Shown here piece after piece: positions 42,263-60,308 of a DNA stretch of 64,000 nucleotides. The notes under the pieces were generated by a model. That model was not told the origin of the DNA and did not search any database. It saw nothing but the letters and a program-made list of their open reading frames with translations. Position 1 is the first letter of the stretch. Each line of letters opens with the position of its first letter. Position numbers and translations under genes: made by a program. Source of the stretch: Rhodothermales bacterium (GTDB lineage: Bacteria; Bacteroidota; Rhodothermia; Rhodothermales; Bin80); contig CATQHT010000003.1 of assembly GCA_958296045.1 (NCBI GenBank), positions 2,378,501 through 2,442,500 of the forward strand, in the 5' to 3' direction.

Positions 42263-42283
42263 CGGGCAATCCGGTTGGCTCGG

Positions 42284-42880: not shown

Positions 42881-42906
42881 CGTGTTCGGGAGGCTGGTTG
42901 CAGTGC

Positions 42907-43130: not shown

Positions 43131-44216
43131 CCGATACAACACGTTCAACGCCGCGTTAACGTCGCGGCACTGGGTCTTTCCGCATGTGGCACAACGATGC
43201 TTCCTGTCAGCCAGGCGTAGCCTTTCCTCCGGCTTGTGATGGCAAGCGCTGCATCTCTGCGTTGTGTCGTTCGGCGCAACCAGCTCCACCTTGCCGCCAA
43301 GCAAAGCGGATTTGTACTTCAACAGCTGCACCAATGCGTACAGCCCTTGCGCGCGCATCGATCGGTTCAGCCCCGTCTTGCGGCTGCCACCGGCGCGTGT
43401 CATGCGTTCTACTTTCAGGTCTTCCAGAAACAGATTCGCGGATCGCTTAACGACGTCGGCAGCCACCTCGTGGCGGTACCCGCGGTTGCGTCTTACTACG
43501 CGCTCGGCCTCCTTGCGCCAAGCACCGAACCGCTTTCGGCGCAGACGCGTGCCTTTCTTCGTCTTAGCAGCCCGACGCTGCAAAGCGTCCCTGCGGGGCG
43601 CACTCTTTTTGATGGGCGCGTAGCTCTTTCCATCCGCCAGCGTCGCGATGGCCTTGCAGCCAAGGTCCACGGCCATCGGTGTGTCTGCGCAGCTGTTCTC
43701 TGGCGCCTCGGGGCGCTCGTACACGACTTGTATCGAGTATTCGGTACCCAGCGACGACCGCACGATGCGCACGAACGTGCAGCCGTAGCGCTTGATCAAC
43801 CCGCGCCGATCGGTGAAACGGACGTACCCGACGCCCTTGATGCGAACGCGATAGTCTTGGCGCCTGACGCGTTCGGGCTTTCGTAGCAGCCTGAAGCTCT
43901 TCACCAAGTCGCCGCTGAAACGCGGCGGGCGCGCATGGTGCTTATTGAAAAAGCGCTTGTAACCCTCCGTCACGCCCCTGATCACAGAACGCTGCTCAGC
44001 CACGCCGAACTCGAGATTGCGCTCATCGGCTCTGCGGGCGGCCGTCCAGAGCTTCGTCAACGTGAAATAGCTCGGATGCTTCTCTGCTACCTTGTGTGCG
44101 TTGCGGCATTGTTCGACCGCCCCGTTGCGGACCCACTTACCGTTTACGAACATCCGCCGCAGGCGGGCATAGCCCGCCTTCTTTGTATAGCAGCGGTATG
44201 TCTGGCTCAGTAGCAA
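42924..44216 (-). CDS. tnpB: TnpB RNA-guided nuclease (OrfB of IS605)
   Basis: 430 residues from TTG 44216. RuvC catalytic residues: Asp in PMAVDLGCKAIATL (near 184), Glu in LFLEDLKVERM (near 264) and Asp in QCRDVNAALNVL (near 352). The zinc ribbon is CSACHHKPEERLRL with HRCATCG. The N-terminal part (ARLRRMFVNGKWVRNGAVEQ) matches the family. The C-terminus extends about 70 residues beyond the final Asp helix, through sequence that is also the element right end. TnpB is the ancestor-type of Cas12 and cuts DNA next to a TAM using an omega RNA. It looks complete. The preceding short gene ends 2 bp before its start. Confidence 0.9.
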   Translation of the reverse strand: MLLSQTYRCYTKKAGYARLRRMFVNGKWVRNGAVEQCRNAHKVAEKHPSYFTLTKLWTAARRADERNLEFGVAEQRSVIRGVTEGYKRFFNKHHARPPRFSGDLVKSFRLLRKPERVRRQDYRVRIKGVGYVRFTDRRGLIKRYGCTFVRIVRSSLGTEYSIQVVYERPEAPENSCADTPMAVDLGCKAIATLADGKSYAPIKKSAPRRDALQRRAAKTKKGTRLRRKRFGAWRKEAERVVRRNRGYRHEVAADVVKRSANLFLEDLKVERMTRAGGSRKTGLNRSMRAQGLYALVQLLKYKSALLGGKVELVAPNDTTQRCSACHHKPEERLRLADRKHRCATCGKTQCRDVNAALNVLYRGLCPDGWAASLSYAQHVSAHPDAERHPLLDAVAGLGSVQNRARELHPQGCCAPTSAGEIDHLPTRQIG

Positions 44217-44218
44217 GG

Positions 44219-44413
44219 CTACGGGCGCTCTCGTGGGTCGGCTTTCAGGCGTGCCGTCTGGGCAGCCCGGATCCGCTTCGAGTACGCAATCAGGGCCTCA
44301 TCGACAACGGCTCGGCGCAAGACGTCCGAGTACGGCGCCCCTTCGCGCAGGGCAAGACCGAAAGCAACGTCAAGGGCGCTACGTGAAACGTAAAGAAGGA
44401 CTATTTCCGACAT
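44219..44413 (-). CDS. short protein translated just upstream of tnpB
   Basis: 64 residues (MSEIVLLYVSRSALDVAFGL to LKADPRERP). Its stop is 2 bp before the tnpB TTG start, so it may be needed to carry ribosomes into tnpB. The basic helical C-terminus (YSKRIRAAQTARLKAD) could bind nucleic acid. I know no family for it; it may also be a chance frame. Confidence 0.4.
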   Translation of the reverse strand: MSEIVLLYVSRSALDVAFGLALREGAPYSDVLRRAVVDEALIAYSKRIRAAQTARLKADPRERP

Positions 44414-44766
44414 TCAGGCAGGCGGGAGCGGTTATCGACGTGCATAGCACCTACGCAGTTACGGAGCCGATGGTTCCGGTCAGGCTAAGTTAATATTTCG
44501 CCAGCCCTATGCACGCTTGTTCAAGGATCAGCGGCAAGTATAGTTTCCTGGGGTTCCCGGACGGAACCTTCATACACGTTTCACGCTAAAAGCGGCTGAA
44601 AGCGATTCCAAGTGGCGTCCGTCGATCCGAGGGTTGTACTCGGCATTGCGTGGCGTCGTATCTTACGCGGTAGGAATGATGCCGTGCCATTGCGGCATAT
44701 GCAGCCTGCCGTGGCGTGCAGCGTTGTTGGGCTGCCCAGTCAAACCCCTAAACCAGTGTTTTGCAC

Positions 44767-46176
44767 ATGAAACAGTTTGCAGACCAGACTACCCGTCGCG
44801 ACTTCCTTAAGAAGTCTACTCTTGGTGCGGCTGCGGCCGTTGCGGCCGTAGGGTCGGTAACTAGGCCTGTGTCGGCGCGGGCGAAGGCGCCGGTAGTGAG
44901 GCCGGTGCTAGGCGCAAACGACGTCGTCGTGGCCGGCTTTATTGGAGTGGGCGGCCAAGGCTACAACTCGCACCTGCTCAACGTCACCAACGTTGACAAC
45001 GAGGGCAAGCCTCGACACAACATCCAGCTCAATGCGATTGGGGCGGCGGCCTGTGACCTGTATTCGGTACGCCAGGATCGTGCTTTGAAGTCTTTGGAGA
45101 TGGCCCGTCAGGCGGCAGGCCGGGAGGCTGCCGTGAGCGCGCATGAGGACTACCGCTACATTTTGGACAACCCCGACATCGATGCCATCTTTATCGGCAC
45201 GGTTGACCACTGGCATACCAAGATTGCCGTGGAAGCGCTCGATGCGGGCAAGCATGTCTACTGCGAAAAGCCCATGACGCGTTATCTCGGAGAGGCGTTC
45301 GAGATCTATGACAAGGTCAAAGAGACCGGTCTCAAGTTTCAGGTTGGCTCACAGTTTTGTTCGGAAGGCAAGTGGCATCATGCTGCCAAGATGATTGCGG
45401 AAGGCAGGATCGGGCCGCTCGTTTTGGCGCAGGATTCCTACCATAGGAACAGCCCGAACGGGGAGTGGAACTATTACCGCATTGAGGACGAGCTTGAGGC
45501 GGGCAAGACCATTGACTGGGCCAAGTGGCTGGGTCCGGTAACGGAGCGTCCTTTCAACAAGGAGCATTTTCACCGCTGGCGGAAGTATTACCCATACTGT
45601 GCTGGCATCCTTGGCGACTTGTTGGCGCATCGTATTCATCCGCTGCTGATTGCTACGGGAGCGAACGAGTTTCCGATGCGGGTCTGCTCGGTGGGCAACA
45701 AGAGGATTATGGATGCCAATGTCGGTCCTGACGACCGCGATGTGACGGAGAACTGTCAGTTGCTGGTGGAATTCCCCAGTGGCATGTGCATGATGATTAC
45801 GGGTTGCAGCGTGAATGAGCAGGGTTTAAACCAGGTGATTCGCGGTCATGAGGGAACGTTATATTTCAGTGGTTCCAGCGTAGAGTTGCGTCCAGAGCGT
45901 CCCTTTGCGGACTTGGTCGACCAGGAGAGGGAGGAGAATATCACGCCGGGTGTCAGCATTCCGGTGCATATCAGCGACTTCTTCGAGGCGATCCGGGATG
46001 ATCGCGAGCCAAACGGCAACATTGATGTTGCGGTCCGTTGCCAGGTGATCATTTCGATGGCGGAGCAGTCGGAGCGTACGGGCGAGATGCTTTATTTTGA
46101 CGAGGCTACGCGAACGCTGTCGACGGGTGGTGGGAAGAATCCGGTGGACGCCATCACGTACGGTACGCTGGACTAG
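44767..46176 (+). CDS. Tat-exported Gfo/Idh/MocA family oxidoreductase
   Basis: 469 residues from ATG 44767. The twin-arginine signal TTRRDFLKKSTLGAAAAVAAVG predicts export in folded form with bound cofactor. The Rossmann region (VVAGFIGVGGQGYNSHLL) binds NAD(P), DAIFIGTVDHWHTKIAVEAL is typical, and the Gfo/Idh signature CEKPMTR contains the catalytic Lys. It also has HRIHPLLIATGANEFPMRV. Such enzymes act on sugars or glycosides; the substrate is unknown. Its 3' end (from 46073) was duplicated to 52095-52199. A terminator-like hairpin follows. Confidence 0.9.
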   Translation: MKQFADQTTRRDFLKKSTLGAAAAVAAVGSVTRPVSARAKAPVVRPVLGANDVVVAGFIGVGGQGYNSHLLNVTNVDNEGKPRHNIQLNAIGAAACDLYSVRQDRALKSLEMARQAAGREAAVSAHEDYRYILDNPDIDAIFIGTVDHWHTKIAVEALDAGKHVYCEKPMTRYLGEAFEIYDKVKETGLKFQVGSQFCSEGKWHHAAKMIAEGRIGPLVLAQDSYHRNSPNGEWNYYRIEDELEAGKTIDWAKWLGPVTERPFNKEHFHRWRKYYPYCAGILGDLLAHRIHPLLIATGANEFPMRVCSVGNKRIMDANVGPDDRDVTENCQLLVEFPSGMCMMITGCSVNEQGLNQVIRGHEGTLYFSGSSVELRPERPFADLVDQEREENITPGVSIPVHISDFFEAIRDDREPNGNIDVAVRCQVIISMAEQSERTGEMLYFDEATRTLSTGGGKNPVDAITYGTLD

Positions 46177-46232
46177 TGCCGCGCGCGGTCACGCTTGATT
46201 GGGCAGGCTGACCATTGTTGCCACTTGAGGTG

Positions 46233-46270
46233 CGACCCGCAGGTGCTCTCTACGGGTCGGTTTCTGTTCT
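46233..46270 (+). terminator. rho-independent-like terminator after the Gfo/Idh gene
   Basis: A 7-bp stem CGACCCG / CGGGTCG (46233-46239 and 46253-46259) is followed by GTTTCTGTTCT. It overlaps the stop of the convergent coiled-coil gene. Confidence 0.5.
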
Positions 46271-46447
46271 AATCTCGGCGCGGAGTCCGGTGAGGCCTTC
46301 TTTGGTCTCGGCGCGGAGCTCGGCGAATTGTTTCGTGAGCTCGGCGCGGAGTTTGACGCTATCGCGGTGCAGTATCCAAATGAACGCGTAGAGGCCCAAG
46401 GTGGCAACGAGGTTTATGAGCCCTTCGATCGTGAAATCAGGAGTCAT
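46250..46447 (-). CDS. short membrane-anchored coiled-coil protein
   Basis: 65 residues: MTPDFTIEGLINLVATLGLY is followed by a membrane helix ending FIWILHRD, then a short charged coiled coil (AELTKQFAELRAETKEGL). It is the short sister of the 233-residue protein at 52929-53630. The two share the N-terminal 40 residues almost exactly but differ in the number of AELRAETKKDL-type repeats. The function is unknown. It is likely inner-membrane with the coil in the cytoplasm. Confidence 0.6.
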   Translation of the reverse strand: MTPDFTIEGLINLVATLGLYAFIWILHRDSVKLRAELTKQFAELRAETKEGLTGLRAEIRTETDP

Positions 46448-47501
46448 GTTATCAATGTAAAGCCCTAGCGTCTAACGTACCCACACAACGCGCAGATACT
46501 AGAAAGGTGCCGCGCACCGCAAGGTATTTCTGTGCTGACGCGCCCAGTGGCGTGCCGGGCTGCCGAGGTGTAGAGCAATCAAGACGTTTCTCGCAGTCAC
46601 GCCTAACGAATCAGGGGCGGGCAAGGACACTGAGGCGGATGCGGGCGGCACAGACATACGGTGGTCCGCTGCAATGCCTGCCCACATCCGACTTTCGCCA
46701 AGAATATAGAACTTGCGCATCGGACAGCGTTGGAGACGGTTGCGCAATCACCATGGAGCGGCATTTGCATGCCCATCGGACCGGAATCTGTTGGCAGCCT
46801 GCTCGGGTATGAGATGCGACGGTGACGGCTGAGGGATGCCGCGGGCTCGCTCTTGGTTCAGGATCATGCCGCCCGCGAAATGGAGGCACACTTACGCTAG
46901 TCAGGGACGAAGAACGTAGCTGCAACTGTAGGTAGGGCGGCACAACGATATCGTTCGGCTGATAACACCAAGTGCCTTCCGCTTGGCGGGGGCACCGGTG
47001 ACTGGAATACGTGGACTTGACCTCTCTGAGTCCAAAACGACGGGCCTGCAGGGACCAGCCCACTCGGCAAGTGGAGTCTTCAGTGCATGCGCCACGTACA
47101 TTCGCGGGCGATGCAGCCCATTTGCCGCGATGCGGGCTTCTAGCCATCGGCGGTCAGGCAGAACGCGGTGCGAAGCCCGGGGGCACATGGCCCCCTTCTC
47201 GGGCGCTTCTGGCACACGGATTTCGGCTTCAGCGACCGTCATGACAGCACTGATTCTGTTCGCCCAAAGGGGTTCCCCAAATCGGGTTTGGCTGTGCGCC
47301 CACGGCGGATGCTCATTAACATCGGAGCAGGGCGCCCCTCCTGCGGCGTTGTGGTACCAGACAATAGCTGAGGTCCCTGCATCGAAGGTGCCCACAGGCC
47401 GTTCAGTACCGTGCGTCCGCAGGATCACAGCACTACTGTCGCTAACTTTGTACGCTCCACTCATCAGAGCAGCTACCGGGTGATGCTGATGCAGGTAGGC
47501 A
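46448..47501. other. about 1 kb without a supported gene
   Basis: The first 440 bp belong to the duplicated segment. Within it the minus frame MRNRLQRCPMRKFYILGESR (82 codons, stop 46499) is nearly unchanged in copy B. Further right, frames on both strands are open from 46901 to 47483 but none gives a consistent family match. It may be a decayed gene. Confidence 0.35.
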
Positions 47502-48470
47502 ATGGGACCGATGCATACCGTTAAGATGGCTCTAGAGGCTATGGCGACGCGCTTCGAGCTTGTGCTCATGGGTAGCGACGCCCCATCCCTGCGCGCCGCA
47601 GGGGAAGAGGCACTGGCGGAAATCGCGCACATGGAAGCACGCCTCAGCTTCTATCGGCCCACCAGTGAGGTAAGCCGCATCAATCGGGCTGCCGCAAGCG
47701 GCCCGGTGCGAGTATCCGCTTGCACGTTTCGGCTGCTTCAGCGCGCTGCCGCCATCACTGAGAGTACTGGAGGAGCCTTTGACATCACGGTCGCTCCCCT
47801 CATGAAGTGCTGGGGATTCGTGCGCGGACGGGGCCACTGGCCTGCGCGCGACGCTCTGCAGCAGGCGCGCAGCGTCGTCGGTATGCAGCATGTGGTTCTG
47901 AATGAACCGAACAGGTCTGTAGCCTTCCTGCGCGACGGGCTCTCCATAGATCTGGGGGGCATTGGCAAAGGGTATGCTATAGACGAGGCGGCAAGCATCC
48001 TGAAGGAATGCGGAGTCAACCGGGCTCTGCTCCATGGTGGTACGAGCTCCGTGTTTGCTCTCGGAGCGCCCCCCGACGAAAAGGGATGGCGCGTCGCGGT
48101 CCCGCTTACCCGCAGCCAGGCCGATGGCGTATGTTTGCCCCAGGCCGTAGTAACTCTGAACGATGAAGCGCTGTCGGTGTCGGCAGTATGGGGCAAAGCA
48201 TTTCAAAACGATGGTATAGTGTATGGCCACGTGATAGATCCGCGCAGCGGCATGCCGGTAGCGGGGGCGGAGCTGGCAGCGGTGGTGCACCCTTCTGCTG
48301 CCGACGCGGATGCGCTTGCTACCGCACTGATGGTTATGGGAACAGATGAGCGAAGCCGTGCTTTGCAGAACTTTGGTACCTTGCGCTTTCTGGTGACGCG
48401 CGCGACTGGTCCGGTCGTGGCCCATGGCATAGACATCCGCGCGCGCGTGCCAATAGAAGCACCCTGTTAA
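47502..48470 (+). CDS. apbE: FAD:protein FMN transferase
   Basis: 322 residues. ApbE proteins attach FMN to Thr or Ser of exported redox proteins. Motifs seen: MALEAMATRFELVLMGSD at the start, EARLSFYRPTSEVSRIN, STGGAFDITVAPLMKCWGF, LSIDLGGIGKGYAIDEAA (FAD-binding core), ALLHGGTSSVFALG, HVIDPRSGMPV and the metal-binding ADADALATALMVMG. ATG 47511 is an alternative start. No signal peptide is evident, so it may be cytoplasmic or the export signal was missed. The next gene starts 14 bp later (Gfo/Idh), suggesting one transcript with the Fe-S protein. Confidence 0.92.
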   Translation: MGPMHTVKMALEAMATRFELVLMGSDAPSLRAAGEEALAEIAHMEARLSFYRPTSEVSRINRAAASGPVRVSACTFRLLQRAAAITESTGGAFDITVAPLMKCWGFVRGRGHWPARDALQQARSVVGMQHVVLNEPNRSVAFLRDGLSIDLGGIGKGYAIDEAASILKECGVNRALLHGGTSSVFALGAPPDEKGWRVAVPLTRSQADGVCLPQAVVTLNDEALSVSAVWGKAFQNDGIVYGHVIDPRSGMPVAGAELAAVVHPSAADADALATALMVMGTDERSRALQNFGTLRFLVTRATGPVVAHGIDIRARVPIEAPC

Positions 48471-48484
48471 CTCCTGTTGAGCAC

Positions 48485-49750
48485 ATGATCAGTCGTCGCG
48501 ACTTCCTCAGAACGGGCGGTGCCGCCGCCTCCCTTTTGGGCCTCTCTAGGGCGGTGGAGATCCGCCCGGATCCCTCCTTTGTGCGAACCCGCCCCCCACA
48601 GAGCGCCGACGTTAACATCGGAGTGATTGGCTACGGTCCGCGCGGCAGAGAAATCACGTCTACCCTCTCGCGCGTGCCCGGCGCGCATGTGGCCGCCATA
48701 TGTGACAGCTATGCGCCGATGTTGCGGCGTGCGCAACGGGATGTCCCGGATGCGGCACGCTACGAAGATTACCACCAAGTGCTAGATGATGCGGAGATTC
48801 AGGCAGTGGTGGTCGCCACTCCGACCCACATGCATCGCCAAATAGTCGTCGATGCGCTAGAGGCCAGCAAGAACGTGTACTGCGAGGCACCCATGGCCTC
48901 CTCTGTAGATGACGCTCGGGCGATGGCAGTCGCGGCACAGGCGGTAAGTGACAGCCAGATATTCCAGGTAGGCCACACCTACCGCTCGAATCCGCAACAC
49001 CGCTCCGTTTTCCAGTTTATCCGCAGTGGCGCGATTGGCAGCCCGGCTATGGGGCGCGCCCAGTGGCATGCCCGCCAAAGCTGGCGGCGGACATCGCCGA
49101 ATGCGGATCGCGTACGGGCACTGAACTGGCGTCTAGACCCGGAGCTGTCGATCGGACTGGTCGGCGAGATGGGTATCCACCAGATGGATGTTGCTTACTG
49201 GGTTCTGGGCGCGCTGCCGACCAAAGTCATCGGGTTTGGTCAGATCATGGCATGGAACGACGGACGGGAAGTGCCCGACACTGTACAGGCGGTCTTCGAG
49301 TTCCCCAGTGGCATGCACATGATGTTCGACGCCACGCTGGCAAGCTCTTTTGATGATGCGTACGAAGCTTACTACGGTACCGACAGCACTATCCTGTTTA
49401 GGGACAGGGGTAAAGCCTGGATGTTCAAGGAGGTGGATGCGCCGATGCTAGGCTGGGAAGTCTATGCCCGCAAAGACAAGTTTTACAAGGAGACGGGCAT
49501 CGCGCTTCTGGCCAATGCGACGCAGCTAGATGCCCAGAACCAGGACCCGACCGAAGACGATCCCAACGTCGAAACACCGCTCTGGTACGCACTGAACGAG
49601 TTTATGGATAACCACGAGTTCGGTCCATACCTGCCAGCAGCGGATTACCAGCGCGGGCTGGAGGCGGCCGTGATTGCCATTGTCGCAAACGATGCTATCC
49701 TGCAGGGTACAAGCCTTGCCATCGACCCGGCACTCTATACGCTAGGGTAG
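48485..49750 (+). CDS. second Tat-exported Gfo/Idh/MocA family oxidoreductase
   Basis: 421 residues. Twin-arginine signal MISRRDFLRTGGAAASLLGL. The Rossmann box is VNIGVIGYGPRGREITSTL, followed by VVVATPTHMHRQIVVDALEA and YCEAPMASSVDD, where the usual E-K-P is EAP, so the catalytic Lys of the motif is replaced by Ala. GLVGEMGIHQMDVAYWVLGA is typical. The lost Lys suggests an altered or absent dehydrogenase activity. It lies 14 bp after apbE and 150 bp before the membrane Fe-S gene. Confidence 0.88.
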   Translation: MISRRDFLRTGGAAASLLGLSRAVEIRPDPSFVRTRPPQSADVNIGVIGYGPRGREITSTLSRVPGAHVAAICDSYAPMLRRAQRDVPDAARYEDYHQVLDDAEIQAVVVATPTHMHRQIVVDALEASKNVYCEAPMASSVDDARAMAVAAQAVSDSQIFQVGHTYRSNPQHRSVFQFIRSGAIGSPAMGRAQWHARQSWRRTSPNADRVRALNWRLDPELSIGLVGEMGIHQMDVAYWVLGALPTKVIGFGQIMAWNDGREVPDTVQAVFEFPSGMHMMFDATLASSFDDAYEAYYGTDSTILFRDRGKAWMFKEVDAPMLGWEVYARKDKFYKETGIALLANATQLDAQNQDPTEDDPNVETPLWYALNEFMDNHEFGPYLPAADYQRGLEAAVIAIVANDAILQGTSLAIDPALYTLG

Positions 49751-49899
49751 CCCCACTTGGGCCGGGGTTGACGTCGGCGCGGCCAGCCAGCCGACCCGCC
49801 GATTCCAGTTCTGCCCTCCAGCGCTGCCGCAGCGTGCGTGCGGCGAGCACAGGTTGTCCCAGTCCCGGCAGTGTATGTGGGCAGGGGCCATCGCGGGCA

Positions 49900-51930
49900 A
49901 TGCCAACGGTTATGCTGACACCAACGGAACAGGTACTTTTCGCGTTCGCGGCGGTCGCGTCAGCTTTCTGGGCATGGCGAGGCTTTTCCAGCGTCTTCCA
50001 AGCTATTGGGCGTGGCAGCGGACCTTCGCTGAAGCTGAACATCAGGCGGGTGGCCCGCGCCGCGGTCGACTGGATCCTGATGAAAGCGATGTGGAAGACG
50101 CGCACGCTCACGAGCCTGGTGCATTTGCTCATTGCGTGGGGATTTGTTTTCTATTTGGCGGTCAATGTTCTTGATGTAGTCTGGGGCTATACGGGTGTCC
50201 ACCTGTTAGGAGGCGGGAGTGTGCACCATGCCTACCTCTTGGGCGCCGACCTCTTCAGCGGTCTCGTGCTTGTCGGGATGGTCGCATTGCTCATCAGGCG
50301 CTTTCTGTCGGCTGCCAAAGGTCGGCTGTCCTTCAGGAGCGATATACGGTACATCGAGGCTTTCAAGGTGTGGCTGCTGCGGCTAACGATATCCCGCGAC
50401 TCTCTTATTGTGGGTTGCTTCATCCTGCTGCATGTCGGGTTCCGGCTGGCGGGTGAGTCAGCGGGTGTGGCCATCGACGGTGCCCCAGACCCGTACCAGC
50501 CGTTGGCCAGTGTAGTCGCGCCCCTGTGGCCAGCCTCCTTGCTGGACATCGGGCGCCACCTATGCTGGTGGGGAGCGCTAGGGCTGATCCTGCTATTTGT
50601 GCCCTACTTCCCATATACCAAGCACCTACATTTTATTATGGCCGGCTTCAACTTCTGGACGAAGCCGGAGCGTACCTCACCCGGAGCACTGGATCCGATT
50701 GATTTCGACGATGACTCCCGGGAGGTGTTTGGTGCGCAGCGCTTGGAAGACTTGCCGCGCACCAGCATCGTGGATGCCTTCGCGTGCATCATGTGCAACC
50801 GGTGTCAGGACGTATGTCCGGCCTATGCGACAGGCAAGGACCTGTCGCCAGCGGCGCTGGAGGTCAGCAAGCGCTACTATTTGAATGAGCATCTGAAGCC
50901 ATTTGCCAGCGGCGCTCCATCTGGACTTGCTCTCCTCGACTTCGCTATCACCGAGTCGGCCCTTTGGGCGTGCACTGCCTGCGGGGCATGTACGGATATC
51001 TGTCCAGTAGGTAACGAACCGATGCTGGACATCTTGGAGATCCGGCGGGGACAAGTGCTGATGGAGGATCGCTTTCCAGGCGAGCTCCAGTCGGCCTGGC
51101 GTGGCATGGAACGTAACGGCAACCCGTGGAACCTGGCCGCCGCGGATAGGATGGCCTGGGCTGAGGGACTCTCTATCCCCACGGTGGACGAGGATCCAGA
51201 GGCTGACCTGTTGTGGTGGGTCGGCTGCGGTCCGTCCTATGACCAGCGCGCGCAGAAGACTGCCCGTAGCCTCGCGAGGTTGCTGGAGCGGGCCCAGGTT
51301 CGATTTGCCGTATTGGGAGGCCATGAGCGGTGCACGGGTGACGCTGCCAGAAGAAGCGGCAATGAGTACCTGTTTGACATGTTGGCGCGCGCCAACATTG
51401 ACACGTTGAACGCGGTGCGTCCTAAGCGCATCCTGACGACCTGTCCTCATTGCCTGCATACGCTAGGCAAAGAGTACGGTGCGTTGGGCGGGCACTACGA
51501 GGTGATTCACCATACGGAGCTGTTAGCAGCGCTGGTGGCCGAAGGTCGACTCAGCGGGTCGCCGCAAGATGGACCCGCCGTGACGTTTCATGATCCGTGC
51601 TATTTGGCACGCCAGAACGGGATTGTGGATCCTCCTCGCCAGGCGCTGGGTGCGCTGGCGTTACCCGTGGTGGAGATGCCGCGTAGTGGAAAGCGCTCTT
51701 TCTGCTGCGGGGCTGGTGGCGCCCAGATGTGGAAAGAGGAGGCTGCGCCCACGGTTGGAGATGCTCGCTACAGAGAAGCGGCCGCGACCGGCGCCGAGGT
51801 GATAGCTACCGGGTGTCCGTTCTGCCTGCGGATGCTGACCGATGCCGCTGCGAGCGCAAAGCAGCCGATGGTCGTGAAAGATGTCGCAGAGCTCCTAGCG
51901 GACAGGATGGCAGCTTCGGGCGACCCTTGA
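49900..51930 (+). CDS. membrane-bound Fe-S oxidoreductase (heterodisulfide reductase-like)
   Basis: 676 residues from ATG 49900; ATG 49912 is also possible. The N-terminal 230 residues have about five membrane helices (for example SLVHLLIAWGFVFYLAVNVL and LVLVGMVALLIRRFL), resembling a nitrate reductase gamma-type haem or quinone domain. Two 4Fe-4S motifs follow (CIMCNRCQDVCPAY, CTACGACTDICPVG), then two CCG domains (TTCPHCLHTLGKEY, TFHDPCYLARQN with SFCCGAGGAQMWKEEA). It probably moves electrons between a cytoplasmic partner and the quinone pool. A decayed copy of its 3' end is near 61745-62030. Confidence 0.88.
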   Translation: MPTVMLTPTEQVLFAFAAVASAFWAWRGFSSVFQAIGRGSGPSLKLNIRRVARAAVDWILMKAMWKTRTLTSLVHLLIAWGFVFYLAVNVLDVVWGYTGVHLLGGGSVHHAYLLGADLFSGLVLVGMVALLIRRFLSAAKGRLSFRSDIRYIEAFKVWLLRLTISRDSLIVGCFILLHVGFRLAGESAGVAIDGAPDPYQPLASVVAPLWPASLLDIGRHLCWWGALGLILLFVPYFPYTKHLHFIMAGFNFWTKPERTSPGALDPIDFDDDSREVFGAQRLEDLPRTSIVDAFACIMCNRCQDVCPAYATGKDLSPAALEVSKRYYLNEHLKPFASGAPSGLALLDFAITESALWACTACGACTDICPVGNEPMLDILEIRRGQVLMEDRFPGELQSAWRGMERNGNPWNLAAADRMAWAEGLSIPTVDEDPEADLLWWVGCGPSYDQRAQKTARSLARLLERAQVRFAVLGGHERCTGDAARRSGNEYLFDMLARANIDTLNAVRPKRILTTCPHCLHTLGKEYGALGGHYEVIHHTELLAALVAEGRLSGSPQDGPAVTFHDPCYLARQNGIVDPPRQALGALALPVVEMPRSGKRSFCCGAGGAQMWKEEAAPTVGDARYREAAATGAEVIATGCPFCLRMLTDAAASAKQPMVVKDVAELLADRMAASGDP

Positions 51931-51931
51931 T

Positions 51932-52012
51932 CCAGCGGCGGTAGCCGCTCAATGGTCTGGATAATGGGTTGCGAATCCAGGCGGCTGGGCGGCTGGGAGC
52001 GGACTTTCACCA
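51932..52012 (-). pseudogene. C-terminal scrap of a xanthine dehydrogenase-type subunit
   Basis: The reverse frame reads PSRLDSQPIIQTIERLPPLD, matching the end TRLSTQPFIQTIEQQPPQ of the gene at 62035. Only about 25 codons remain. It is convergent with the intact Fe-S gene, mirroring the arrangement at the right side of the window. Confidence 0.6.
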
Positions 52013-52059
52013 AGGCTCTGGCAGAAGCAGCCGCTGTGGAGGGGGCTCACCTACCACCC

Positions 52060-52199
52060 CACCCCGACGCTGGCAGAGCAGGTTGCCTTGCACCAGCGTA
52101 CGGGCGAGATGCTCTATTTTGACGAGGTTACGCGGACACTGTCGACGGGTGGTGGGAAGAATCCGGTGGACGCTATCACGTACGGTATGCTGGACTAGT
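52060..52199 (+). pseudogene. 3' fragment of a Gfo/Idh/MocA gene
   Basis: The frame TLAEQVALHQRTGEMLYFDE, then VTRTLSTGGGKNPVDAITYG and TAG at 52197 repeats the C-terminus of the gene ending at 46176. There is no start or Rossmann domain. Confidence 0.75.
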
Positions 52200-52271
52200 G
52201 CCGCGCTCGGTCACGCTTGTTCGGGCAGGCTGACCATTGTTGTCACTTGAGGTGCGGCCCGCACGGGTCAT

Positions 52272-52592
52272 TATGAGCAGCAAGAAGGGCGGAGGTGGAA
52301 CTGCTGCGCAGATATGGTAGGAAAGTCTGGACAGTTTGTGGCCAGACGGTGTGGAGACTGAACCGGCGTTCAGTATGAAAGGCAGGTTGAGACCTTGTTG
52401 GTAGAGCCGTTTCTGGCCGCGTTAGGCTGGGATGCTCGACGAATGGTTGACCGCGTAGTCAAGCGGTATCGCATTGATGGCCTGGACCGTAAGCAAAGGT
52501 CTGACCACGCGCTACTGAACCCAACTTCGTCACTGGTAGTGAAATGCAAGGCCGGACCTCCCCTGTACCCGGCTTTGGGGGGCGTTACACGA
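52272..52592 (+). pseudogene. N-terminal fragment of a type I restriction (HSDR_N-like) protein
   Basis: Frames read MSSKKGGGGTAAQIW, stop, then ESLDSLWPDGVETEPAFS and, after a shift, ERQVETLLVEPFLAALGWDA, RRMVDRVVKRYRIDGLDRKQ, RSDHALLNPTSSLVV. The P-F-L-x-x-L-G-W-D box and D-x-ALL strand are those of HsdR N-terminal nuclease-like domains (HSDR_N_2). It is cut by an IS66 end at 52593. A short related fragment is at 11270-11345. Confidence 0.55.
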
Positions 52593-52637
52593 GATGGCCA
52601 CATGGCCTGCATTTAATGCAGTCTACGGGACGGTTAC
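52593..52637 (-). mobile_element. 45-bp IS66 end B remnant
   Basis: GATGGCCAC.TGGCCTGCATT to CTACGGGACGGTTAC, matching 8173-8217, the tnpA-side end of the IS66 copy. It shows another IS66 once sat here. Confidence 0.8.
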
Positions 52638-52928
52638 CGTACACACATGTGCGCGAAAGCCGTTTTCGTGCCCCTGACGCAAGACTCAGGTGGGGCTTTT
52701 GAAGGAAATAGGAAGGTACCCTACTTCAATTAGCGTGGCATTTCCTCCACAACGCCCAAGTATGCCCCTGGTGTGCGCTCCATCGGTGGCAACGAGGTAC
52801 ACGGAGCGTGTGGGTTCTTGCTTACATCAGGGGCTGCTGATCCATGCCGTTATACAACGCAGTACGGTAGCGATAGCCACAACGACCTCTCTGGGCTTCG
52901 AATAAGCTGAGACCACTTTCAGGCACCG
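52638..52928. other. no recognisable gene
   Basis: 290 bp between the IS66 scrap and the coiled-coil gene stop. Nothing supported. Confidence 0.3.
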
Positions 52929-53630
52929 TTATCTGTCCGCCGCTTTTTGGCGTAGGTCCTCAGGAGGGGACACCAGCCAAGGCAACCACCGTGGGTTCTC
53001 TGTGAGCCCCTCAATGCGTGCGACCCTGTTGGCCAAACTCCGAACATGTGTGGCCAACTCTTTAATCTCGGCGCGGAGTTCGGCGAGGTCTTTCTTGGTC
53101 TCGGCGCGGTGCTCGGCGAGGTCTTTCTTGGTCTCGGCGCGGTGCTTGGCGAAGTCTTTGCGGAGTTCGGCGAGGTCTTTCTTGGTCTCGGCGCGGAGTT
53201 CGGCGAAGTCTTTGCGGAGTTCGGCGAGGTCTTTCTTGGTCTCGGCGCGGAGTTCGGCGAAGTCTTTGCGGAGTTCGGCGAGGTCTTTCTTGGTCTCGGC
53301 GCGGAGTTCGGCGAAGTCTTTGCGGAGTTCGGCGAAGTCTTTCTTGATCTCGGCGCGGAGTTCGGCGAGGTCTTTCTTGGTCTCGGCGAAGTCTTTGCGG
53401 AGTTCGGCGAAGTCTTTCTTGATCTCGGCGCGGTGCTCGGCGAGGTCTTTCTTGGTCTCGGCGCGGTGCTCGGCGAGGTCTTTCTTGGTCTCGGCGCGGT
53501 GCTCGGCGGACTGGTTCGTGAGCTCGGCGTGGAGTTTGACGTTACCGCGGTGCAGTCTCCAAATGAACGCGAAGAGGCCCAAGAAGGCAACGAGGTTTAT
53601 GAGCCCTTCGCTCGTGAATTCAGGAGTCAT
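52929..53630 (-). CDS. membrane-anchored coiled-coil protein with expanded repeats
   Basis: 233 residues. Residues 1-30 (MTPEFTSEGLINLVAFLGLF, AFIWRLHR) form a membrane anchor nearly identical to the 65-residue protein at 46250-46447. Residues about 40-200 are tandem units of AELRAETKKDL (11 residues) alternating with AELRKDF (7 residues), a long charged coiled coil. The end (THVRSLANRVARIEGL) is a different coil plus a tail with WLPWLVSPPEDL. The repeats leave two other frames open on the plus strand, but the membrane anchor and the sister gene support this strand. Such a rod could space or tether partners at the membrane. Function unknown. Confidence 0.7.
   Translation of the reverse strand: MTPEFTSEGLINLVAFLGLFAFIWRLHRGNVKLHAELTNQSAEHRAETKKDLAEHRAETKKDLAEHRAEIKKDFAELRKDFAETKKDLAELRAEIKKDFAELRKDFAELRAETKKDLAELRKDFAELRAETKKDLAELRKDFAELRAETKKDLAELRKDFAKHRAETKKDLAEHRAETKKDLAELRAEIKELATHVRSLANRVARIEGLTENPRWLPWLVSPPEDLRQKAADR
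53060..53515. repeat. tandem 33-bp and 21-bp units within the coiled-coil gene
   Basis: The core unit is TTCGGCGAGGTCTTTCTTGG plus TCTCGGCGCGGAG (33 bp), mixed with a 21-bp unit TTCGGCGAAGTCTTTGCGGAG, about 16 units in all. All units keep the reading frame. Likely to change copy number by slippage or recombination. Confidence 0.9.
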
Positions 53631-54085
53631 GTTATCAATGTAAAGCCCTAGCGTCTAACGTACCCACACAACGCGCAGATACTAGAAAGGTGCCGCGCAC
53701 CGCAAGGTATTTCTGTGCTGACGCGCCCAGTGGCGTGCCGGGCTGCCGAGGTGTAGAGCAATCAAGACGTTTCTCGCAGTCACACCTAGCGAATCAGGGG
53801 CGGCCAAGGACACTGAGGCGGATGAGGGCGGCACAGACATACGGTGGTCCGCTGCAATGCCAGCCCACGTCCGACTTTCGCCAAGAATATAGAACTTGCG
53901 CATCGGACAGCGTTGGAGACGGTTGCGCAATCACCATGGAGCGGAATTTGTATGCCAATCGGACCGGAATCTGTTGGTAGCCTGCCCGGATATGGGATGC
54001 GACAGTGACGGCTGAGGGATGCCGCGGGCCCGCTCTTGGTTCAGGATCTTGCCGCCCGCGAAATGGGGGCCCACTTACGCTAGTC

Positions 54086-54431
54086 CTGCCGTTTACCCAT
54101 AACGGTGCATCTTACAATATTAGGGAGCGTAGGATTCACCGGGTAGTCTGATGGTAGATTTGTGGACTGTAGGGGACAACATATGGGAGGTTGTACCTCT
54201 AGGTCAGGTGGCATGTGGATTCCGCGAGGTCGATAGTCGGGGCACAGGCTACGGCCTCGAACGGGCTGCACCTTCCCCGTAGTCCCACGTATGTGGATAT
54301 TCAAACGGTATGCATGGTTGTCATGGGTCATCCTCCAGCAAGCTCAAAGCGAATACGGCTGTTGTTAATCGGTCCAGCCCACGCCACATGATCTCGTTAC
54401 CCGGTGGACCATCCCGGCTGCGGTTCAGGTA
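54086..54431 (-). mobile_element. tail of a third DruA/Tn5-type IS (copy-1 type)
   Basis: Inverted copy of 13850-14192: starts CTGCCGTTTACCC, runs through the untranslated tail and the last about 35 codons of the transposase (reverse frame ending MDLLEDDP-like). It is cut at 54429-54434 by the copy-2 element. No catalytic part remains. Confidence 0.85.
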
Positions 54432-55273
54432 GCCCTGCCCGTTACCCATATAGTGACCTAGTCTGACGACTCTGCGGGTGCATTGGACCTATCTTCAGGC
54501 CCAGCAATAGTGCTCAGGTTTACCCCCGGCTCATTAGGACCACTTAACTTTCTAAGTCGTGCTGCTTACCATAGCAGCATGTTCGAGCAGAATCAGATTT
54601 TGCGGACTCTCAGTGCTCTCTGGGGGCGCATTCGCTTGAAGAAGAGGCTCTCTGACGAGAGCCTTCCCAATCGCACCGCGATTGCGCGCCGTGTATGTGA
54701 GGACTTTGGCTTTGTAGATGCCAAAGGCAGGGCACAGGTAGCTACCTGCGCGAAAGCTCTCTTGAAGCTGGAGGCACGGGGTGAGATCACGCTGCCAGCA
54801 CCGCTCAACAATCATGCTGCGCAGGCGTCGCCCCGCCTGTTGGACGAGGCGGTTGCTCCACCGGTGGCGATGCCAGCGACTTTGGATGAGGTGGAAGGTC
54901 TTGCAGTGGTAAGAGTTCGGACCGCAGCACAGCGTGCGGTGTGGAATACCCTGCTGCACCATGAGCATCCTCGTGGTACGACCACCCTTGTTGGTGCCCA
55001 GCTGCGGTACCTGGTAGTGAGCGCACATGGATATCTGGGCGCGGTAGGCTTTTCCGCCCCGGCCTTGCGCTTAGCCGCAAGGGAACACTTCATGGCATGG
55101 AGCGATGCCCAACGCCAAGCGCACCTCCACCGCATCTTCTGTTTGAGCCGCTTTCTGATACGCGGCACCTGCAAATACCTGGCCAGTCACGTATTCGGCA
55201 GGGTGTTGAAGCAGGTACCTGACGACTGTTATGCGCTTTATGGATACCACCCCTGGTTGACAGAAACGTATGT

Positions 55274-57193
55274 GTGCGCCAGGCTAACTGGCGTTAGTAC
55301 AGGGGGTGCAAGTCCCCCGTTGTGAAAGACTAACCATCTGCACATCTCCTCGAGCCGTGCGTGTGTACTCGCGAGGGTACAGGCGAAGCGTCGGTAGAGG
55401 CGCGTGTGGGCAGGGCTAATGAGCACCGAAAGCTTCATCGTCCGGGATGCCGAGACTTTGCATTTGGTCGAAGGCAACACCTTCTTTGCCGCTAATGGTG
55501 AGGCGGAGGAGGGTCCCGCGGTGTCCAAGAACCCAGGCACGCACGTACGTACTACGCCGGGACCTGGGAGGTCTCCGTGTCACCCTGGAGTCGTTCAGGG
55601 TCGCGAAAGAGAGGGTTAATCCCCGTAACTGGAGATGAACGACATGGAGAAGTCCGATACAGGAATAGTAGCTAAGAAAGCAGCGAACAAGGGGCGTAGC
55701 CGCCCGGCGGAGCTGCCGGAGCCAAGTCCTGTACCTGAGGGGAAACTGGAAAACTCTAACACTGTCCGGGCGCGGGATCGGGTAGCGGTGCAACAAGGAG
55801 CGGACCGGTTGCGACAATTCGTGAAGCGGAAACCCAAGGAGCAGCTCACGACGCTTCTGCACCATATCACGGTGAAATCGCTGCGGCATGCCTTCTATCG
55901 TTTAAAGAGGAAGGCAGCGCCAGGCGTGGACGGCGTGACATGGGCGGAGTACGAGGTTGGATTGACAGCGCGTTTGGCTGACTTACACGACCGCGTACAC
56001 AGCGGAGCGTACCGGGCGATGCCGTCCAGGCGGGTTGAGATACCCAAGCCAGATGGCAGTACACGACCGCTCGGCATTGCGGCACTGGAGGACAAGATTG
56101 TCCAGGCTGCGGTGGCGATCTGTATCCTGCTCCCGATCTATGAGGAGGAGTTTCTTGACTTCAGCTATGGGTTTAGGTACAAGCGGAGGGCGCATGATGC
56201 GTTGGACGCGTTGGCCTATGCGATCGAGCGTACGAAGGTCAACTGGATTGTTGATGCGGACATACGTTCTTTCTTTGACATGGTGGACCAGGGCTGGCTG
56301 ATTCGGTTTCTGGAGCACCGCATAGCGGACAAACGGGTCATTCGGCTGATCATCAAATGGCTCAAGGCAGGCGTAATGGAGGCCGGTGTTTTGCGGGACA
56401 GTCCGATGGGCACCCCGCAAGGCGCGGTAATTTCGCCGATACTGGCGAATGTGTACCTGCATTATGTTCTGGACCTGTGGTACGATAAGCGATGGCGCGT
56501 GCGGGTGGCGTGGGGGGAAACCTGCCTTGTCCGTTATGCGGACGACTTTGTGGTAGGCTTCCAGCGGAAGCACGACGCGCAGCGTTTTCTAAGGGATCTA
56601 GGGCAGCGGATGGCCAAATTTGGCTTATCCCTGCATCCGAAGAAGACTCGCTTGTTGGAATTTGGGCGGTTTGCGGCGGTGAATCGCCGCAGCCGAGGTG
56701 AGGGTCGTCCCGAGACGTTTGACTTTTTGGGTTTTACGCATTATTGCCGAAGGGACCGCCGCGGTCGTTTCGGATTGGGACGGAAACCGGTGGGGAAGCG
56801 AATGGCACGAAAGCTGAAAAGCCTGCGTCAGGAGCTTCGCCGTAGGATGCATGCACCGTTACACGCTACAGCCCAGTGGCTGGGGCGCGTACTTCGGGGA
56901 TGGCTGAACTACTATGCTGTTCCCACCAGCTTTGTGTTCCTACGAAGGTTCTTTACCCGCCTGAAGCGTGAATGGATGAAAATAATCCGCAGACGTTCGC
57001 AGAAGGATCGCATGACATGGAGTAAGCTGGAGACCATGATTACATGGTGCTGGCCTGCGCTCAAGATCAAACACCCCTGGCCTAATCAACGATATGTCGC
57101 CATGCACGCCGGTGCGACCCAAGGGAGGAGCCGGATGCGTTAACGCGCCCGTCCGGATCTGTGCGGGGGGCCCGGGGAAACCCGGGTCCCTAC
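55274..57193 (+). mobile_element. group II intron (intron 2) in the DruA/Tn5 gene
   Basis: 1920 bases, starting GTGCGCCAGG (canonical GUGYG) and ending CTAC. Domain V is GAGCCGGATGCG / CGCCCGTCCGGATC at about 57127-57160, followed by the domain VI hairpin GGGGGGCCCGGG-GAAA-CCCGGGTCCC. It has the same direction as the host gene, and excision restores the reading frame, so it may be harmless to its host. Its 5' end matches the intron fragment at 14275-14380. Confidence 0.88.
55635..57143 (+). CDS. ltrA: group II intron reverse transcriptase/maturase (intron 2)
   Basis: 502 residues. The first about 70 form a charged extension (RSRPAELPEPSPVPEGKLEN). Reverse transcriptase blocks: KRKAAPGVDGVTWAEYEV, RRVEIPKPDGSTRPLGIAAL, WIVDADIRSFFDMVDQGWL, GTPQGAVISPILANVYLHYV and YADD (near residue 301) in LVRYADDFVVGFQ. 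Maturase region: RVLRGWLNYYAVPTSFVFLR. No HNH endonuclease motif is visible. It is intact and clearly from another lineage than the protein of intron 1 (different block residues and length). Confidence 0.93.
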   Translation: MNDMEKSDTGIVAKKAANKGRSRPAELPEPSPVPEGKLENSNTVRARDRVAVQQGADRLRQFVKRKPKEQLTTLLHHITVKSLRHAFYRLKRKAAPGVDGVTWAEYEVGLTARLADLHDRVHSGAYRAMPSRRVEIPKPDGSTRPLGIAALEDKIVQAAVAICILLPIYEEEFLDFSYGFRYKRRAHDALDALAYAIERTKVNWIVDADIRSFFDMVDQGWLIRFLEHRIADKRVIRLIIKWLKAGVMEAGVLRDSPMGTPQGAVISPILANVYLHYVLDLWYDKRWRVRVAWGETCLVRYADDFVVGFQRKHDAQRFLRDLGQRMAKFGLSLHPKKTRLLEFGRFAAVNRRSRGEGRPETFDFLGFTHYCRRDRRGRFGLGRKPVGKRMARKLKSLRQELRRRMHAPLHATAQWLGRVLRGWLNYYAVPTSFVFLRRFFTRLKREWMKIIRRRSQKDRMTWSKLETMITWCWPALKIKHPWPNQRYVAMHAGATQGRSRMR

Positions 57194-57398
57194 CGCGAGG
57201 GAACCTCCATGGAAAGGTACGTGTTTCAAGGCGGCCAATTTTCTGTCCATCGGCTATACTGCTGGGGGCAAGCGCCACGCACATTCCAAAGAAGAAGCGC
57301 CGAAGGCCTTGTTCATGTACGCAGTGGACCGCCGGTGGCGCTCGTACTTGGGCGTACCCGAGGTGGCGCTGCGTCCGGTCAGGTAACCGCACGAAGGC

Positions 57399-58817
57399 AT
57401 GGACGACTGGGTTGAGGCAGAGTTCGGAGATGCTCCGCTGGGAGACCGGCGGCTGTCCACGCGGCTGGTGAAGAGCGCATCGTTGTTGGCCGATGTGATA
57501 GGAAAGCCTATATGCTCCCATATAAGCCATGATAGGGCGGCGGTGAAGGCCCATTACCGGCTTCTGAGCAGTAAGCAGGCCGACGTAACGCCCGAAAACA
57601 TGCTGGCGCCGCATCGCAAACGTACGATTGAGCGGATACGCAGTCAGAAGGCGGTACTCTGCATACAGGATACCACCAAGCTGAATTTCAGCACGCGACC
57701 CGCCTGTGAAGACTTGCAGGTCATAGGTACCAACCAGACGAAAGCAAAATCCCGTGGGATGCCCCTTCATGCCACGCTGGTTACTACTACCGATGGCCTG
57801 CCCCTGGGGATATTACGGTGGAGTTATCGGGATCCAGATACGGGGCCGCTCAAACCTCGATCGCAGCAGTGGTTAGACGGATTTCTGGACATCTGCGAAG
57901 CAGCAGAGGAGGTTTCCAAGCAGTGTCGCCTCATCTGCGTGATGGACCGGGAGGCGGATAACTTTCCGCTATTTGCCGCCCAGCAGGCACAGGATCGCGC
58001 GGACATCTTGGTGCGCGCCCGTCATGACCGGAAACTGGCGAAGAATACAAAGCTGTTTGAGACGCTTCGCAGCGGTCCTGCCGCTGCGAGGGTGCGGATA
58101 GAGATCCAACGAGTCACGGCGCGTCCGAAGTCTTCCAGGAAGAAGGTGCATCGCGGGCGCAGTCACCGTATTGCCCAAGCCGAGGTACGCTACCATTGCG
58201 TAAAGCTGCCCGCCACGCAGCAGCAAGTGGGATCCGTAACGATGTACGGCGTGCATGTCCAGGAGATCGCACCCCCGAAGGGAGAGAAGGCGGTGGAATG
58301 GTACCTGCTGACCAGTATGGCGGTGCACAGCGCAGAAGAAGCGGTGCAGATCCTGACTTATTATACCCGGCGATGGCGTGTTGAAGACTTTTTCCGTGTG
58401 CTCAAGAGTGGCTGTAAGGTGGAACGCATGGCGATGCATTCGGCAGCGCGTCTGGAACGTGAGTTAGCGATGTACTGCGTGATCGCCTGCTATGTCATGA
58501 TGCTCACCTTACTGGGGCGTGCCGTCCCTGGATTAGACGCCAAGCTGATATTCTCCCCGATGCAGTTGTTTGCTCTCTCCATTTATGCTAAGAACGTGAA
58601 GCTGCCTGTACCCCGCACCCTGGAAGCGGTGCTTCTGCTAGTAGAGTTAATGGGCGGCTTTCAGAATCTAAGTCGCGATAAACCGCCCAGCTTTCAGATC
58701 ATGTGGCGCGGATTAGAGCGACTATCCATTGTTTGCGTTGCGTACGAAATGCTGCCGGCAGCGTATCGAGAACGGCTTGGTTGCGACTATGGCCATGGGA
58801 GCAGCATACCTTCTTGA
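57399..58817 (+). CDS. Tn5/IS4-type transposase part of copy 2
   Basis: 472 residues from ATG 57399, 12 bp after the in-frame TAA of the DruA part. DNA-binding start DDWVEAEFGDAPLGDRRLST; catalytic Asp in VLCIQDTTKLNFS and ICVMDREADNFPLF; Glu in YTRRWRVEDFFRVLKSGCK; C-terminal LERELAMYCVIACYVMMLTL dimer region. All three catalytic residues are kept, so it may act as a stand-alone transposase, like ordinary Tn5-family proteins. It is diverged from copy 1 but collinear. Confidence 0.88.
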   Translation: MDDWVEAEFGDAPLGDRRLSTRLVKSASLLADVIGKPICSHISHDRAAVKAHYRLLSSKQADVTPENMLAPHRKRTIERIRSQKAVLCIQDTTKLNFSTRPACEDLQVIGTNQTKAKSRGMPLHATLVTTTDGLPLGILRWSYRDPDTGPLKPRSQQWLDGFLDICEAAEEVSKQCRLICVMDREADNFPLFAAQQAQDRADILVRARHDRKLAKNTKLFETLRSGPAAARVRIEIQRVTARPKSSRKKVHRGRSHRIAQAEVRYHCVKLPATQQQVGSVTMYGVHVQEIAPPKGEKAVEWYLLTSMAVHSAEEAVQILTYYTRRWRVEDFFRVLKSGCKVERMAMHSAARLERELAMYCVIACYVMMLTLLGRAVPGLDAKLIFSPMQLFALSIYAKNVKLPVPRTLEAVLLLVELMGGFQNLSRDKPPSFQIMWRGLERLSIVCVAYEMLPAAYRERLGCDYGHGSSIPS

Positions 58818-59084
58818 CCCTGTCGCGCAACGGCGCACGAGCCATAGGCACGCCACCACGGAGCAGCACTGGCATCGTAAGCAATGGATACCCCTAATGC
58901 ATGTCTGAACGCACATTGAGTAACGGCACGTCGAAACCTTACGGACGGCGAAGTGCAAAAAGTCAGCAAGGGTGCTCCGCATGATCACTCATCGCCGCGA
59001 ACTGAGCACTATTGCTGGGCCTGAAGATAGGTCCAAGGCACCCGCTGAGTCGTCAGACTAGTTCACTATATGGGTAACGGGCAG

Positions 59085-59783
59085 AGCTACCTGGACGTAA
59101 CGAGCCTCAAGGGCGTTGCCGCGATGAAACTGCACCGGGACATCGGCGTCAGCTACAAGACTGCTTGGTTCATGCAGCAGCGGATCCGGGAAGCGTTCGG
59201 TGCAGAGGGTCCGATGGTCATGTCCAGGCCGATCGAGGCGGACGAGACGTACGTTGGTGGGTTGGAGAAGAACTGGCGAGCCAGGGACCGGAAAAACCTC
59301 GGTCGGGGTCCGGTTGGCAAGACGGCGGTTGTCGGTGCCAAGGACCGGGAGACCAGTAAGGTGGCCGCGCGGGTCATCGAGCGGACCGACCGGAAGACGT
59401 TGCAGGGCTTCGTGGACGAACACGCCAACCCGAATGCGGCGCTCTACACGGACGACGCGACGGCCTACAAGGGATCGGGACGGCACCACGAAGCGGTGAA
59501 GCACAGCACTGCCGAATACGTCCGGTATCTGGCGGGCGAGACGGTTCACACCAATGGCGTGGAATCCTTCTGGAGCATGCTCAAGCGGGCCCATAAAGGG
59601 ACGTTCCACCGGCTCAGCCCGAAGCACCTACACCGGTACGTCAACGAGTTCTGCGGGCGGCACAACATCCAGGAACTCGACACCATCCGGCAAATGGAGC
59701 ACATCGTCGCCCGGATGGTCGGGAAGCGGCTCATGTACCGGGATCTGATCGCCGACAACGGACGGTCCCCGGTGGCGAGTTAG
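59085..59783 (+). pseudogene. IS1595-family (ISXO2-like) transposase, N-terminus lost
   Basis: The frame LDVTSLKGVAAMKLHRDIGV, SYKTAWFMQQRIREAF, MSRPIEADETYVGGLEKN, YTDDATAYKGSGRHHEAVKH, HTNGVESFWSMLKRAHKGTF covers the whole DDE-type catalytic region of the IS1595 family, ending VAS at 59783. The N-terminal zinc ribbon and about 90 residues are missing, replaced by the end of the copy-2 IS. The apparent ATG at 59070 is within that IS end. Confidence 0.88.
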
Positions 59784-59789
59784 GTGGGG

Positions 59790-60308
59790 CTACTCCGGGG
59801 GCTGAAGGCCCGCTAGTTTCAGGAGTTGGTCCCTGAGTTTGATTGCGAGGACACGACGCACGGCGTATGTTTGTAATCCGTGATTGTACGCCACTTCTCG
59901 AATCCGATCACGTTTGGCTGATCGGAAGGTATCCTTTCGTTCTACATACTCGAACGCGAACTCCTGAATCTCGAAGTTTCGTGTTCCTGCGTCGGTCGCC
60001 AGTTGGCTTGCCAGGTTCTCTGCCCAAGTATCCGCTTCCATGTCGTTAGCGACGTTTTTACCAAGGGGCGTGAGGGCAATGGGACTTCGGCTGGCGACGA
60101 CGTCTCCGACCGGCAAGACGGAGCGAATCGCACTGAGCAGACGATGCTCCATCCGTTCGAGGCGGCCTGTCGTTCGTTCTTCTGTGCGTTGGAGTCGTTC
60201 TTCCAGCCTGGTTTCTACGTGATCCGTGCGTTTTCCAAGTGCTTTCCAAAGGGTGACGATCGCGCCGATTATCAGAGCGAGGGGGACCAACCATTCAGGA
60301 ATCGTCAT
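59790..60308 (-). CDS. membrane-anchored coiled-coil protein
   Basis: 172 residues from ATG 60308 (MTIPEWLVPLALIIGAIVTL). An N-terminal membrane helix is followed by a coiled coil (about residues 30-65, KRTDHVETRLEERLQRTEER) and a soluble C-terminal half: VASRSPIALTPLGKNVANDM, TRNFEIQEFAFEYVE, then a helix-rich end (NHGLQTYAVRRVLAIKLRDQ). No family recognised. The frame stays open upstream to 60626, but that part is low quality. It is convergent with the IS1595 remnant. Confidence 0.6.
   Translation of the reverse strand: MTIPEWLVPLALIIGAIVTLWKALGKRTDHVETRLEERLQRTEERTTGRLERMEHRLLSAIRSVLPVGDVVASRSPIALTPLGKNVANDMEADTWAENLASQLATDAGTRNFEIQEFAFEYVERKDTFRSAKRDRIREVAYNHGLQTYAVRRVLAIKLRDQLLKLAGLQPPE

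Follow-up and report, generated by a model that had tools for sequence, protein, structure and literature searches.

A Rhodothermales gene for a predicted membrane-anchored coiled coil with an in-frame array of 33- and 21-bp repeats, and relatives that differ in stalk length

Gene B and its repeat array

The DNA considered here is a stretch of 64,000 nucleotides (the window) from a Rhodothermales bacterium, positions 2,378,501 to 2,442,500 of contig CATQHT010000003.1 (assembly GCA_958296045.1), and its subject is a gene, B, whose product is predicted to be a coiled coil anchored in the membrane. A protein search finds two copies of this gene in the 4.78-Mb genome, B and a second copy designated A, both within the window (Table 1). 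The protein encoded by B starts with a short acidic N-terminus, followed by a hydrophobic segment, a basic stretch, a long stalk, and a non-repeat C-terminal end, or head, that includes the sequence NRVARIEG.

The stalk is encoded by 15 exact in-frame tandem units flanked on each side by one degenerate hendecad, and Tandem Repeats Finder (TRF) recovers the same array as the tiling. Five of the heptads read LRKDFAE or LRKDFAK, and the sixth, TKKDLAE, is a hendecad minus its first four residues. Codons are alike across all 15 units except for GAA/GAG and AAA/AAG exchanges; the array uses 12 distinct codons where 2000 synonymous redraws average 28.3 and never fall below 23, and it holds nine distinct unit sequences among the 15, the minimum in 2000 redraws being 14. 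Repetition in the array is far above chance, and the array is homogenised at the DNA level. The small number of codons relative to the redraws, together with the identical neighbouring 54-bp stretches, indicates that the DNA of the array is either young or homogenised, and the absence of synonymous drift in these sequences supports a recent origin.

Hydrophobic residues in the stalk recur every 3.59-3.60 residues, i.e. 18/5. Heptads wind to the left and hendecads slightly to the right, and 18 residues over five turns (3.6) lies near the value of 3.63 for the unperturbed helix, as described in PMC4786415; because of this closeness to a straight helix, the alternation of 11- and 7-residue units should give a nearly straight rod. 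The AlphaFold model (a monomer, from a 5-sequence alignment) is a single unbroken helix from residue 7 to residue 211, with a mean predicted local distance difference test (pLDDT) score of 82.7.

Table 1. Positions of gene B, copy A and associated features in the window (position 1 is its first letter)
Feature	Positions	Strand	Basis
Gene B, intact, 233 amino acids (aa): N-terminal anchor, 15-unit stalk, C-terminal head	52929..53630	-	Open frame; homologous ends in relatives
Predicted transmembrane segment, B residues 5-23, N side acidic, C side basic	53562..53618	-	Hydropathy 1.78; charge count
Array of tandem units: nine 33-bp hendecads, six 21-bp heptads	53079..53501	-	Tiling and unit identities; TRF; synonymous-redraw control
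Three consecutive identical 54-bp (33+21) stretches	53166..53327	-	Unit sequences
Head motif LANRVARIEG, B residues 199-208, including R-h-x-x-h-E	53007..53036	-	Motif definition as given in PMC3653964
153-nt leader upstream of the ATG of B, identical to that of A	53631..53783	-	A/B comparison
Copy A, a remnant of 65 aa truncated at its 3' end: the anchor, a single hendecad and the first part of the C-terminal end before a break	46250..46447	-	Protein search; BLASTN
153-nt leader upstream of the ATG of A, identical to that of B	46448..46600	-	A/B comparison
Duplicated tail of a Gfo/Idh/MocA gene (full gene 44761-46176)	52095..52263	+	BLASTN
Dispersed short repeats in the interval from the Gfo tail to gene B	52518..52704		42 matches listed for a 966-bp query against its own genome

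Relatives of B and the lengths of their stalks

Relatives were examined in 16 genomes of the window's GTDB family and in a second family represented by G039, G048 and G054. With a profile of the protein (A7), 12 of the 16 genomes give matches at E<=0.001, a count that includes other coiled coils, and full-length members with the layout of B occur in seven (G000, G001, G002, G006, G012, G014 and G015), amounting to 18 proteins. These have a short N-terminus, a membrane segment that usually ends W-R/C, a stalk of 42-212 aa, and then a head with the sequence L-x-x-R-h-x-x-h-E-G or a near variant. Scanning of the first 60 residues reveals a hydrophobic segment in all 18 (mean hydropathy 1.78-2.70), and none was seen by eye in their C-terminal ends; the net charge N-terminal to the segment is negative in 17, and that of the 16 residues following it is positive in 16. 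In profile searches a 78-aa frame of the window genome, at C3:2206149-2206274, matches the C-terminal part alone, and no gene with the B layout was found around it. A B-like layout is also present in the second family, but the match of profile A7 to these proteins (A8), with a probability of 97.2, is confined to 49 C-terminal columns, and for this reason we assign them the same layout rather than proven membership. A peptide-pattern search for named relatives of B gave 89 genome-contig and 13 viral-contig matches, none of them confirmed, and a search with query A2 returned four loci, all in Rhodothermaceae bacterium bin80, which is genome G015, a sponge symbiont binned from Aplysina aerophoba (PMC5649159).

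The R-hxxhE sequence of the head is defined in PMC3653964 as marking parallel three-stranded coiled coils, though some dimers have it too. Of 21 members, 20 carry it at the head (the 21 being the 18 family proteins and three from the second family), the heads having been located by a similar pattern with no heptad register assigned, and it occurs at none of 1909 positions in the stalks. Left out of the 21 are the truncated copy A; L009 and L140, which run into contig ends; the fragments L135 and L136; L125, which is short and has RLARIE; L128, whose N-terminus differs; and L029 and L054, N-anchored proteins with other C-terminal ends.

Stalk lengths differ among paralogs of the same genome. 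The four in G015 have almost identical ends and stalks of 68, 109, 115 and 129 aa, and the three in G006 have stalks of 89, 104 and 129 aa. Five pairs of G015 paralogs have more than one change in the C-terminal part, each with 5-8 synonymous and 2-5 nonsynonymous differences; the corresponding sites number about 33 and 99, and by these counts the ends are constrained.

Syntenic orthologs were compared at four loci, and stalk length differs at three of them. G012 C34 and G014 C57 are 97.9% identical over 976 aligned bp and have stalks of 103 and 110 aa, the sole gap being 21 bp, or one heptad, with clean collinear flanks. The stalks of G012 C77 and G014 C12 are 118 and 158 aa, with a 120-bp gap within the gene. 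At the locus shared by G039, G054 and G048 the stalks are 133, 118 and 104 aa respectively; G039 is collinear with each of the other two for 1.1 kb upstream at 92-93%, and the downstream flanks are not collinear over the whole of the stretch compared. Where G012 and G014 were compared, the five gaps read within stalks (21, 120, 345, 33 and 42 bp) are all multiples of three. A prior sequence-only reading of gene B had proposed a membrane-anchored rod whose length is set by repeat number, with a survey of the family as the check; the predicted helix, the conserved ends and the differing stalks of relatives agree with that proposal, and repeat number is not fixed, either within genomes or between syntenic orthologs.

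Copy A and the duplicated surroundings

The same reading had noted duplicated segments at 46073-46890 and 52095-54085 carrying the same gene, about 16 in-frame 33/21-bp units in one of them, and a roughly fourfold expansion between the copies. The duplication is borne out by two BLASTN blocks, one aligning 46073-46241 with 52095-52263 at 93.5% and the other aligning 46273-46902 with 53456-54085 (630 bp) at 94.0%, and the unit count corresponds to the 15 exact units and the degenerate hendecad on either side. As for the expansion, the array in B is real, but A is not an intact short version of the gene: it ends just past the point matching the end of the B array and lacks the C-terminal end common to B and its relatives, so that A and B do not provide a clean comparison of length. 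The 50 nucleotides of A from codon 44 fit best in register with B codon 174, where the B array ends (43 of 50; the next register gives 40), and the 20-nt tail fits best at B codon 185 (17 of 20). Judging from this one register match, A probably once carried a short array, its 3' end being lost later; alternatively, a single truncation within a longer array may have occurred.

The 153-nt leaders of A and B are identical, and the 287 nt that follow differ at 17 sites; in the first 49 codons 14 of 147 positions differ (p 3e-5 against the leader). Identity of the leader may reflect promoter constraint or gene conversion, and the overall pattern of divergence may result from relaxed selection on A or from conversion of the leader. 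An Rfam scan of 42000-60000 gives a group II intron as its sole match, with no noncoding RNA at the identical leader, and the 82-aa frames upstream of A and B (46499-46747 and 53682-53930) match no Pfam family.

The Gfo/Idh/MocA gene is complete beside A and present only as a fragment beside B. At 52518-52704 there are short repeats of three types that recur many times in the genome, and an apparent resemblance of the 52395-52616 frame to a restriction-enzyme N-terminus was dropped, Pfam giving no match. A dispersed element of about 350 bp (54079-54429), present in eight copies at 91-100% in the genome, abuts the end of the B duplicate and looks like a non-autonomous mobile element. Further along lie a DruA-domain frame (54483-55325) and, adjoining it, the group II intron (55309-57143; RF02005, 169 bits) with a reverse transcriptase/maturase frame (55635-57143); an IS605 OrfB/TnpB-like transposase with a Cas12f1-like TNB domain is located at 42924-44216.

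A probable tether of changing length, and its place among known systems

The reading that we favour, and consider reasonably probable, is that B is a coiled-coil tether anchored in the inner membrane, probably cytoplasmic and trimeric, whose length changes by gain and loss of units. The positive-inside rule holds that the basic flank of a membrane segment faces the cytoplasm, and with an acidic N side and a basic C side the N-terminus of B would sit in the inner membrane and the remainder, including the stalk, in the cytoplasm. A long predicted coiled-coil stalk of 11- and 7-residue units follows the anchor, and the conserved R-h-x-x-h-E cap near the C-terminus would, as its sequence suggests, probably close a parallel trimer. 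The stalk would grow and shrink by whole in-frame units, gain and loss both being seen in the comparison of relatives, and recombination or slippage between the near-identical 33/21-bp repeats is a plausible mechanism for changing their number; copy A is a truncated duplicate. Units of 7, 11 or 18 residues extend the core by complete layers, so the length of the rod could change without loss of register. An extension of this reading, which we regard as rather unlikely, is that the proteins act as adjustable rulers, in which the anchor and trimer cap are fixed, only the spacer evolves through register-preserving units, and sets of paralogs within a single symbiont cell hold the cap at different distances from the membrane; the range of spacers, 42-212 aa, corresponds to roughly 6-32 nm at 0.15 nm per residue.

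Several observations weigh against the tether. The AlphaFold predicted template modelling (pTM) score for B is 0.28, with an alignment depth of five sequences. At the fourth syntenic locus G012 C127 and G014 C126 are equal in length and the G014 copy is frameshifted, which together with the truncation of copy A indicates that single members are dispensable. Moreover, 12 of the 14 changes between A and B in the first 49 codons are nonsynonymous, an excess that argues against purifying selection on both copies. This decay and nonsynonymous excess, along with family fragments such as G015:C191 and the many dispersed repeats around B, would fit a neutral churn in which stalk length has no function: repeats prone to slippage would drift within a multicopy family that tolerates change and is in part decaying, in a genome rich in repeats, with selection keeping the frame only. 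We give this explanation some weight but think it unlikely, since the ends of the G015 paralogs are nearly invariant, with few nonsynonymous changes, all five of the G012/G014 stalk gaps read are multiples of three, and the head motif is conserved across genera.

The stalk could instead be an amphipathic 11-mer helix lying flat on the membrane surface, as in apolipoproteins or synuclein, with longer arrays covering more membrane. The period near 3.6 would provide one continuous hydrophobic face, and there are weak matches to Apolipoprotein (PF01442; B scores 26.3 bits, L026 81.7), but all are under the Pfam cut-off of 90 bits, the charged residues alternate with a narrow L/F/I/T/A stripe in the manner of coiled coils, with heptads mixed in, and the terminal trimerization-type motif suits a coiled coil; a surface helix is accordingly improbable. 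Nor is it at all probable that the assembler collapsed or expanded the arrays, in the window or in relatives, or that strains were mixed. Some relatives are fragmented (G015 is in about 190 contigs, and L003 stops at the gene), but the window genome consists of four contigs with the array inside one of 2.88 Mb, the single-contig assemblies G039 and G048 differ by 29 aa, and the 21-bp difference between G012 and G014 is flanked by clean collinear DNA.

Sequence searches of Pfam, NCBIfam, PHROGs and PDB return many coiled-coil matches, and B matches phrog_9415, annotated as unknown function, with an E value of 2e-21. B passes the curated cut-offs of Rootletin (38.5 bits against 36) and MbeD_MobD (21.9 against 21.6), L017 those of Col_cuticle_N (26.9 against 23.5) and GCS2 (22 against 21), L006 that of Halo_GVPC (29.2 against 22.4), and L026 that of NF052504 (37.3 against 35). 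These few matches were rejected as composition-driven, because they cover mostly stalk stretches and vary from member to member. Searches confined to open-licence PMC papers gave no account of the B family among the results listed.

Membrane-anchored helical stalks with variable numbers of 11- and 7-residue units are also found in CCDC90-like (PF07798) proteins of the same GTDB family, but these have a C-terminal anchor and an N-terminal head where the B family has an N-terminal anchor. Scores of B (24.3 bits), L017 (29.5), L010 (17.0), L026 (19.6) and L012 (18.5) against PF07798 are below its cut-off of 33.5, and at E<=0.001 this model matches nothing in the window genome. Among the CCDC90-like genes, G012 C126 and G014 C120, collinear to either side of the gene, differ by 378 bp, or seven 54-bp units; C9 and C124 show no difference in that gene; and the single gene at G012:C121 (L194) corresponds to three in tandem at G014:C43 (L193), one with a 42-bp difference in the stalk. 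Both gene number and stalk units vary in this group.

A closer parallel to length change is the RepMP1/DUF16 family of Mycoplasma pneumoniae, in which the number of in-frame 21-nt heptad repeats varies between strains and for which slipped-strand mispairing and unequal crossover are proposed (PMC3472980); change of length by heptad repeats is thus already known. As that family is described there, both are multicopy, of unassigned function, and carry the repeats within a coiled coil, and the one-heptad (21-nt) difference between syntenic orthologs is a further trait in common; DUF16 proteins, however, have heptads alone and unconserved distal domains, whereas the B family has hendecads and heptads, both ends conserved, and an N-terminal anchor. 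The DUF16 model (PF01519, cut-off 40) is listed for L026 only, below the cut-off at 20.3 bits; B has 78 matches, and the 25 of them that are listed do not include it. In NeuO of Escherichia coli K1 the number of tandem heptads likewise sets protein length, and activity rises linearly with heptad number in its poly-psi region; unlike that of B, the NeuO array is N-terminal, is built of 7-nt repeats with phase variation by frameshift, and is not a membrane stalk in the description given (PMC3046976).

Besides the family itself, what is new is its mixture of unit sizes and the constancy of its anchor and cap. It provides a natural series of lengths in close relatives, with which one can ask whether the length of a tether matters and which insertions coiled coils tolerate, and it can serve as a marker of change driven by repeats in uncultured symbionts. 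Like coiled-coil spacers and rulers in general, its members have a helical rod joining two functional ends; but coiled-coil length is reported to vary 3.6 times less than that of other regions, with spacers keeping their length while their sequence drifts (PMC5082667). Set against that account, the B family is an exception and the reverse of the usual spacer, in that both ends are fixed and conserved and it is the length that varies.
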